Source: Synechococcales cyanobacterium bin59.metabat.ball.084 (lineage in GTDB: Bacteria > Cyanobacteriota > Cyanobacteriia > Cyanobacteriales > Chamaesiphonaceae). From it: 64,000 bases of DNA. A model generated the notes under the pieces. It was not told where the DNA came from, searched no databases, and saw only the letters and a list, made by a program, of their open reading frames with translations. The position numbers and the translations under genes were made by a program. Below are positions 35,305 to 37,491 of the stretch, piece after piece. Numbering within the stretch: position 1 is the stretch's first letter; every line of letters begins with the position of its first letter. The stretch lies in assembly GCA_013297675.1 (NCBI GenBank), contig JAAFHZ010000006.1:1-64000 (forward strand). The letters run 5' to 3'.

Positions 35305-37491
35305 TTAATCTCCTTGGCTCGATAATTTTTGCAGTAAAATATCAACTTCATGCTCCGAGAGAGAGTCAACCTCAGATGCAATTTTTTGTACTCTTAGTAG
35401 CGATAAGTGTCTAGAAATAGACTCAATATCCGGATAGTCATCAAATACACTAGGAGAAAGAATACACCCAAACTGCCTCTCAATACTATTCAACAACTCA
35501 GCCATTGCCAAAGAATCAAATCCATAACTGCTCAAAGATTTAGTAGTGCTGATTGCTTCAGGATTCACTTCGTTGAAATTAGATTTCAGGTGTTCTACGA
35601 TTGTTGCTATTAGCCAACGTTGAATAGATTTTACACTTTCAGAAGATTCTTGTTGATCAACCAAATTCTCTGCGGACATACTATCATTGATTTGTATAGC
35701 TGAGCAAAATCTCTGCAATTCATTATTTCTTTCAAATATTTTTGCCTCTTCCTCTGAGCTAGCAGCACTCCACCCCGAAATCACCTCCAGATTTTCATTT
35801 AAATACCTCGTCCGACAATCACCACGTTGAATTTTGCCACTAGAGGTTTTTAATATGCTTCCAGTCTTGAGTAACACAATAGAGCTTAACTGAACTCCAT
35901 TATGCTCCACCACTGCGTGATATATCGCTTTTATTACTTCTTCAGCATTTAGGTTTCGTAAGTAGCTGCGCTTTATTTCATAGGCAACCACTACTTTGTC
36001 CTGTCCACCTGAATCAACTGCGAAGACCGCCCCATGATTCTCTCTTAATGCTAAGTGGCTTTTCTCAGCAACCTTTTCAATATCTTGGGGATAATAGTTA
36101 CAACCTCGAACTATTATTAAATCTTTTAGACGACCTGTGATAAATAACTCACCATCATGTACAAATCCCAGATCACCTGTCCGTAAAAACCGATCTTCTT
36201 TCAAATCTTTCAATTGGGCGTGGAAAGCAATCTCTGTTTCATTAGGTAGAGAATAATAACCTTGGGCTACACTATCCCCAGAAACCCAAATCTCCCCTAC
36301 CTCATCAGGTAAAGATCTAGTCAAATTCTTTGGATGTGCAATAACAATCTGTTGGTTTAGTTTACTGCGTCCACAGCTGACTAAGGTTTGACCTCTATCA
36401 TCACCCTGTAATACTGGGAGCACCTTATTTATCTCCAAAGAGTTCTTGCAAAATTTCTTTAAGATTGGTAAAGATTTCTTTACCCCTCCGGAAGCAATCA
36501 GAGTTGTTTCTGCCATTCCATAGCAAGGGTAGAAAGATTCTCTCCGAAAGCCGCAAACAGCAAAAGCATTTGAAAATGCATCTATGGTCTCAGCCCGAAC
36601 AGGCTCAGCCCCTGTAAAAGCTAAATCCCAACTACTAAGGTCTAAAGACGCTTTTTCTTCATCTGTAACTTTCTGAACACACAAATCATAAGCAAAATTA
36701 GGCCCACCACTTGTCGTAGCATTGTATGTAGAAATTGATTGTAACCATTTAAATGGGTTCTGTAAAAAATCCATTGGCGACATAAGAATTACAGGAAAAC
36801 CGCAGAACAGAGGTTGTATTATTCCTCCTATTAGTCCCATGTCATGATATGGAGGCAACCAAATAAAACCTTTGCTTTTCGGCGAGTGCTCGAAACATTG
36901 CTGTATCAAAGTAGAATTATGATACAAATTACCATGACTTAGCATTACACCTTTTGGTGCTCCAGTCGAGCCAGATGTATACTGTATACAAGCTATCGTA
37001 TTGTGGCTAATAAATGGCTCTTGCCAATCTGATGATGAAACTCCTTGTAAATTATCTGTTGTTAACCACCTAAGATTTGAATTGGCTAATTCAACCTGAA
37101 AAAGTTTATCCCTTTTGCTCCCTAATGTAGACGTAATATCTGTAGTTGTAAGAACAGCAGAAGACTCAGAACTTGATATTATTAGTTGAAGTCTGGATAA
37201 AGAATGATTACGACGTGGCGGATATGCAGGAACCGCAATGACTCCAGCATATAAACAACCAAAAAAAGCTGATACAAATTCTAATCCAGGCTGATATACT
37301 AAAACGACTTTATCGCCTTTCTCTACCGTAGATTGAAGCATTACAGCAATCTTCTGCGCACAAGAATGCAACTCACCATACGATAAAGTATCTTCTGCTT
37401 GACCATGCGCTTTTAAAAAAGTGTATGCATTATTCTTTCCTTCGTAAGTTGCTCTATACTTTAAAATATCGACAATGTTGTTAGGATTCAT
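35305..37491 (-). CDS. Fatty-acyl-AMP ligase fused to acyl carrier protein
   Basis: A 728-residue two-domain protein. Residues about 1-580 form an adenylating domain of the FAAL type ([13 protein letters not shown] at 171-183; [24 protein letters not shown] near 445). Residues about 640-715 form an ACP with the phosphopantetheine serine at Ser660 ([12 protein letters not shown]). FAALs activate a free fatty acid as acyl-AMP and load it on an ACP thiol. It is the first gene of a minus-strand unit and lies one base from the next gene, so the loaded acyl chain is probably the substrate of the alpha-oxoamine synthase. Confidence 0.93.

Follow-up and report, generated by a model that had tools for sequence, protein, structure and literature searches.

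BioF takes pimeloyl-ACP, and saxitoxin synthase SxtA and the prodigiosin protein PigH are carrier-oxoamine synthase proteins. An acyl-ACP–fed serine palmitoyltransferase (SPT) is established in Rhodobacteria, and this system (SPT, AasR and AcpR; Caulobacter CC_1162, CC_1165 and CC_1163) shares with the locus described here a dedicated acyl-ACP synthetase, a specialised ACP and an oxoamine synthase (PMC9386255). It consists of three separate proteins for which the accessible portion of that paper mentions no docking pair, whereas here the FAAL and ACP are fused and the α-oxoamine synthase (AOS) carries a predicted head helix. The A-CP-AOS layout was tabulated in 2013, including an AMP-binding-carrier-AOS arrangement in Blastopirellula (PMC3870968). 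The A-CP-PLP2 and CP-PLP2 proteins of that work (Blastopirellula marina A3ZWL3, Microscilla marina A1ZVW4, Anabaena circinalis B3EYK4) hold the carrier and an oxoamine synthase-like domain in one chain, together with an AMP-binding domain in A-CP-PLP2. They are fused, and split pairs are not discussed in the accessible portion of the paper; the chain studied here is instead split after the ACP, with matching motifs at the two ends. The cysteate acyl-ACP transferase of Alistipes finegoldii (PDB 7u7h), whose title names acyl-ACP, has the oxoamine synthase fold as well but is named for cysteate and is more distant from our AOS (26% identity, rank 46 in Foldseek). Finally, the class 2 PKS docking domains (CurG/CurH, CurK/CurL, Bamb_5925/5924) differ in that the partner at our locus is an oxoamine synthase.

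Because ACP-fed oxoamine synthases and AMP-binding-carrier-AOS fusions have already been published, the ACP route is not new. The original prediction, made from the DNA letters, had regarded an ACP-tethered route as a distinct variant, a view that is preempted by PMC9386255, PMC3870968 and the title of PDB 7u7h. A literature search that took in a minority of subscription journals, and docking domains only lightly, returned no docking pair for an oxoamine synthase; at the same journal coverage, no report pairing a FAAL with an oxoamine synthase, SPT or BioF was found.

A FAAL-ACP fusion gene adjoins a free-standing oxoamine synthase gene

The window is the whole stretch of DNA analysed, 64,000 nucleotides of contig JAAFHZ010000006.1 from Synechococcales cyanobacterium bin59.metabat.ball.084. 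The two genes considered here have the following features.

35305..37491, minus strand: FAAL-ACP fusion gene, an ORF of 728 aa
35377..35649, minus strand: ACP domain, residues 615-705, matched by a custom ACP profile whose seeds include this domain
35512..35514, minus strand: Ser660, the phosphopantetheine attachment residue, from the sequence
33903..35303, minus strand: AOS gene, 466 aa
35310..35313, minus strand: GGAG, a ribosome-binding–like site of the AOS gene within the final codons of the fusion gene, from the sequence
33906..35138, minus strand: AOS catalytic domain, residues 56-466, common to split and fused homologues
34383..34385, minus strand: Lys307 (GTLSKAF), the PLP-binding lysine by homology, invariant in alignments A1 and A3

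Pfam divides the 728-aa protein into AMP-binding (residues 25-413), AMP-dom_DIP2-like (457-571) and PP-binding (641-696) domains. The PP-binding match scored 49.1 bits against a cut-off of 20.8 and a DSL-type serine is present, which identifies the domain as an ACP. This serine, Ser660, sits in [12 protein letters not shown] and is invariant across 15 aligned FAAL-ACP sequences (alignment A4), in agreement with the intact attachment site of the original prediction. Among solved sequences, the nearest to the ligase domain are the FAAL-like 7r7e (588 bits) and 3kxw (455 bits), followed at a distance by FadD32 and FadD23 (about 260 bits) and, much lower, malonyl-CoA synthetase (82 bits). Entries deposited as 'Acyl-CoA synthase' (5d6j, 5icr, 7wua, 5d6n), which we take to be FadD32-type, matched at 225-284 bits. 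In NCBIfam, FAAL models scored 363-395 bits, the CoA-ligase–named PRK07768 301 and the next model 175, all below their own cut-offs. Judged by sequence, the ligase domain is closer to FAALs than to acyl-CoA ligases, the NCBIfam result being less clear-cut. A second FAAL, 49% identical, was observed elsewhere in the source genome (contig C144, 63685-65421) within a 5251-aa frame amid NRPS-like frames, and is probably part of a lipopeptide line.

The AOS begins with an ATG at 35303-35301, one base past the TAA of the fusion gene (35307-35305). Both this one-base gap and the GGAG inside the last codons were seen in the sequence, as originally described. Pfam, alignment and Foldseek identify the protein as an oxoamine synthase of fold type I with the expected His, Asp, His and Lys; the residues H199, D272, H275 and K307 do not vary across 35 rows (alignment A3) and presumably hold the catalytic roles assigned by homology. 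The top Foldseek match was the serine palmitoyltransferase 3a2b (TM 0.78 by query), and SPT is also the closest solved structure by sequence. None of the twelve NCBIfam models matched by the AOS reached its cut-off, including the curated SPT models (309 of 640, 269 of 500 and 201 of 670 bits) and BioF (345 of 426 bits). Residues 174-178 read GH[A/G/P]TN in the family versus GFQSN in 3a2b, and His175 is nearly invariant in the 35 rows. FAAL-ACP and AOS are the only ORFs longer than 400 aa in the 28-39.9 kb interval of the window.

Carrier domains lie directly upstream of most homologous oxoamine synthases

AOS matches were found in 39 of 388 genomes of the class, 12 of 60 relatives and 69 of 291 genomes of the order, in overlapping samples that each count the source genome and were searched at different E-value limits. 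A scan across named genomes turned up at least 569 AOS relatives, the best 80 of which came from cyanobacteria, planctomycetes, myxobacteria, desulfobacteria, proteobacteria, actinobacteria, a chloroflexus relative and a bacillus relative. Removal of identical cores left 149 distinct homologues, where duplicates are defined solely by identical stretches of 100 core residues, so that near relatives remain in all homologue counts. By a rough classification, in which some frames are cut by contig ends, 37 are FAAL-ACP-AOS in one protein, 38 are ACP-AOS, 33 are longer upstream fusions (mostly PKS) and 41 are free-standing. The same chain occurs with several cuts, as FAAL-ACP-AOS, as ACP-AOS, as separate FAAL, ACP and AOS, as PKS-ACP-AOS and as PKS-ACP with a separate AOS.

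A carrier domain was detected directly upstream of the AOS, in the same protein or the adjoining gene, in 138 of the 149 homologues. The ACP profile accounted for 111; addition of a tight G-x-x-S motif, which matches 55 of 3000 control windows, raised the count to 136, and Pfam PP-binding matches in L032 and L180 completed it. Pfam also confirmed the carrier in two planctomycete fusions (L076 and L097). A looser carrier motif found upstream of 142 was set aside, as it matches 758 of the 3000 control windows. The 11 remaining homologues comprise two at contig edges (L052 and L070), one with a broken frame (L139), the second AOS of L137 and seven PKS-AOS fusions of myxobacteria or deltaproteobacteria (L100, L110, L123, L130, L132, L141, L147), which have no carrier adjacent to the AOS. 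In L110 the sole PP-binding match lies between AT and KR, ahead of KR and DH and away from the AOS; in L132 Pfam found no PP-binding domain. The seven PKS fusions excepted, the presence of an upstream carrier in the homologues supports acyl-ACP over acyl-CoA as the donor, and the dedicated acyl-ACP donor of the original prediction gains support from this count.

Several neighbors of the homologous genes were observed in addition. A reductase profile built from six reductases beside AOS genes gave a strong match, that is, above 300 bits, in 22 of the 149 loci (L033, L034, L035, L036, L044, L071, L105 and 15 others). The best solved match of the L044 reductase was the 3-ketodihydrosphingosine reductase TSC10 (107 bits, next 91), and the reductase-bearing AOS loci could represent a cyanobacterial sphingoid-base pathway. 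Moorena bouillonii encodes a 577-aa ACP-AOS (L071:7518-9251) with a reductase-profile match nearby (L071:11885-12991). M. producens, one of two cyanobacteria reported with ceramides, has a second BioF-like protein of 571 aa, according to PMC8895605. Near AOS operons lie an Asp/Arg β-hydroxylase–like gene and a glycosyltransferase-28–like gene (24 bits, cut-off 22; L033:6818-7600, L034:6155-7321), which suggests that products there may be hydroxylated or glycosylated.

Many split pairs carry patterned ends

The original prediction proposed that an 80-residue N-terminal extension of the AOS could dock to the ACP. Local matches of the AOS to solved oxoamine synthases start only between residues 59 and 110, so an extension is real. 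However, from about residue 55 onward the AOS aligns with homologues in which it is fused to a carrier, and the docking-like part is therefore shorter than 80 residues, at about 33. The candidate elements at the two protein ends are listed below.

35205..35270, minus strand: AOS residues 12-33, candidate docking head, [22 protein letters not shown], from motif and predicted helix
35139..35204, minus strand: variable AOS linker, residues 34-55, a gap in the other A1 rows and most of A2
35317..35355, minus strand: docking-tail helix candidate at the C-terminus of the ACP protein, residues 713-725, from AlphaFold2 with a low-confidence block pLDDT of 44-49
Minus strand: tail motif of the ACP protein, residues 711-723, [13 protein letters not shown], a sequence pattern

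A helix is predicted for AOS residues 16-33, with block pLDDT values of 78-80 for residues 11-30 and 63-65 for residues 31-50 in the linker. The nearest relative, L213, has its own, different stretch at the position of residues 34-55. The consensus in split pairs is approximately LSxEEKRxLLxxLLxKK for the AOS head and LSxxEVDxLLxxxL for the tail of the preceding protein. Among rows picked as motif-bearing split pairs, 11 heads all share S, K, R and L, and 12 tails all share S, D, L and L. With relaxed patterns, the mean charge in split loci is −3.9 for 27 tails and +1.5 for 27 heads.

The strict head motif (S..xKR.L) occurs in none of 108 fused homologues versus 24 of 39 free-standing ones, a count made without the contig-edge loci L052 and L070. 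In the first set, for which the patterns were written after viewing the sequences, the head was absent from all 86 fused homologues and present in 14 of the 28 others, and the tail motif ended the preceding protein in 14 of 14; this head count leaves out two short cores (L069) and six duplicates (L073, L082, L084, L086, L109, L114). We then applied the unchanged motif to loci fetched after it was written, where 10 of 14 split homologues and none of the 23 fused ones showed the head, this second set holding close relatives of the first. It derives from 48 loci chosen by rank and frame length, with long PKS frames mostly omitted and with nine duplicates of the first set and two internal duplicates excluded. 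Neither the head nor the tail motif was found in the linkers of the 86 fused relatives or the 23 more. At 80% identity, there are 63 fused clusters without the head, 22 split clusters, 12 of them with the head, and a single mixed cluster, which includes the broken L139.

Head and tail also tend to occur together. In the 38 split loci with an upstream ORF (absent for L111, L052 and L070), the strict patterns found both motifs in 22, neither in 12, the head only in two and the tail only in two. When the patterns were relaxed afterwards, both were found in 27 and neither in 11, raising head/tail concordance from 34 to 38. The L220 pair is one in which head and tail motifs both deviate. The 12 loci with neither strict motif include L117, L125, L136, L140, L145, L143 and the distant L067, L068 and L186.

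The best tree, computed also without L111, L139 and the second AOS of L137, requires eight changes of the strict motif, and its starred branches force at least four changes of the split-with-motif label, so a single simple inheritance does not explain the motif. The association of splitting with the motif was not significant on independent pairs across the starred branches, an underpowered test (three pairs, median p 0.25), and in a smaller tree the median p was 1. Neither head, tail nor PKS tail matched a solved docking domain in a PDB sequence search up to E 10, which is weak evidence given the short queries.

The docking part of the original prediction is supported for AOS residues ~12-33, the head patterned in split pairs, and falls for the rest of the 80 residues. 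The extension might have proved absent or random among homologues; it is patterned instead, with the head in many split pairs and in no fused homologue. The tail of the ACP protein, to which the original prediction did not refer, would form the second docking part, and we infer its binding from the sequence patterns.

Other PKS-linked ends were noted. A similar ending, LSxSEAExLL, was seen on PKS proteins of L092, L243 and L094 that have no free AOS beside them, a hint of a broader repertoire of PKS docking ends. In the proteobacterial pairs of a PKS and a separate AOS (L117, L125, L136, L140, L145), a different head (~GLxxxxKxxLxxxxxExR) goes with PKS tails that also differ, which may reflect another docking code.

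The gene cluster recurs in another family

Four further genes lie downstream of the AOS in the window.

32962..33843, minus strand: SAM methyltransferase (Pfam), with homologues beside the AOS in L213, L220, L224 and L227
32468..32791, minus strand: SMR-family exporter (Pfam, NCBIfam), with a homologue in L213
31115..32299, minus strand: acyltransferase_3 membrane protein (Pfam), with a homologue in L213
30483..30866, minus strand: DUF5360 protein (Pfam), with a homologue in L213 on the opposite strand

L213, from another family of the same order, holds the nearest AOS relative found (71% over the core, grouping with the window at tree support 97). Its FAAL-ACP, 52% identical to that of the window, is followed by the AOS after an 11-base gap. 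Homologues of the methyltransferase (60%), acyltransferase_3 protein (60%), SMR exporter (62%) and DUF5360 protein (75%) are also present, but the genes are rearranged and have HlyD- and FtsX-type exporter genes among them. All six window genes thus have counterparts, 52-75% identical, in one other genome. No description of the cluster shared by the window and L213 was found in literature covering a minority of subscription journals.

In L220, L224 and L227, a methyltransferase (53%) adjoins an AOS that follows a FAAL-ACP-KS-AT-DH-KR-ACP protein (Pfam for L220; start cut), and on this basis the window arrangement looks like a PKS assembly line minus its PKS module. An initial count in which the methyltransferase appeared unconserved (1 of 291, the source genome only) was a sampling effect, homologues having later been found in these three loci and L213. 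The best solved match of the methyltransferase is a phosphoethanolamine N-methyltransferase, a weak one at 43 bits, and NCBIfam names SMR pumps for quaternary amines; together these lead us to guess at an N-methylated amino-lipid product.

The biosynthetic island is flanked by two copies of the carotenoid gene cruF (window 27961-29095 and 37949-39081), about 90% identical over 1.1 kb and 99% over one 300-base stretch. The first copy is followed by mtnP-like pieces and a partial IS982-family transposase (29347-29832) within window 29060-30368, and the second by a full-length mtnP ORF. In G388, a genome of the same genus, cruF is matched once and the AOS not at all at E 1e-80. Recombination within a cruF-mtnP segment may have brought the island in.

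Discussion

We consider it probable that a FAAL-loaded ACP feeds a docked AOS at this locus and yields an α-aminoketone. This reading builds on the domains, the conserved catalytic residues, the adjacency of the genes, the patterned end motifs and the recurrence of the cluster, from which we infer head-tail binding, the use of acyl-ACP, the amino acid and product, and the subsequent steps. The FAAL domain would adenylate a fatty acid and load the phosphopantetheine arm of its own ACP. The short acidic C-terminal helix of FAAL-ACP would bind the N-terminal helix of the separate AOS and so present the acyl-ACP to its PLP site. There the acyl chain would undergo decarboxylative condensation with an amino acid, and the α-aminoketone would be released with no need of acyl-CoA. 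Probable later steps are modification and export of the amino-lipid by the methyltransferase, acyltransferase and exporter encoded in the same row.

If the AOS does take acyl-ACP from FAAL-ACP, the head and tail could still be non-binding linker remnants left by a gene split, since linkers of varied sequence occupy the corresponding position in fused homologues and neither end matches a solved docking domain. Such remnants should not look alike, yet S, K, R and L are invariant in the 11 heads and S, D, L and L in the 12 tails (in motif-selected rows), and neither motif appears in the linkers of the 86 and 23 fused relatives; we therefore regard this as quite unlikely. It is very improbable that the AOS uses soluble acyl-CoA or housekeeping acyl-ACP while FAAL-ACP serves another enzyme. 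The carrier directly upstream in 138 of 149 homologues, the single FAAL, ACP and AOS chain in 37 of them, the one-base gene junction and the lack of another ORF above 400 aa between 28 and 39.9 kb all argue against it, although seven homologous PKS fusions have no carrier beside the AOS and, according to PMC9386255, the SPTs of Rhodobacteria also accepted acyl-CoA and AcpP, though to a smaller degree.

The AOS might also be a serine palmitoyltransferase of a sphingoid-base pathway as in Rhodobacteria, which would be compatible with a docked, ACP-fed AOS. SPT is its nearest solved structure, and 22 of the 149 homologous loci have a strong reductase-profile match, the L044 member being closest to TSC10. 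Nevertheless, the window contains no such reductase and the best match in the source genome is 33% identical; the AOS falls under the NCBIfam cut-offs of SPT (309 of 640) and BioF (345 of 426), and its recurrent neighbors are a methyltransferase and exporters. We consider this assignment possible but somewhat unlikely. More doubtful is a broader proposal extending the docked, ACP-fed AOS, in which a transferable docking code would connect FAAL-ACP, free ACP and terminal PKS ACP to free-standing AOS, and the window and L213 would make an N-methylated, possibly quaternary, long-chain aminoketone lipid of an undescribed class, exported by the SMR pump (in L213 also by the HlyD/FtsX-type exporter).

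The end motifs provide a sequence rule, tried on later-fetched loci, for when an AOS may be fed by a carrier in trans, and the two short predicted helices would be units that can be deleted or swapped. The window and L213 point out a recurrent cluster. Finally, cyanobacterial loci with a TSC10-kind reductase near an ACP-fed synthase bear on the possible source of cyanobacterial sphingoid bases, a question raised in PMC8895605.
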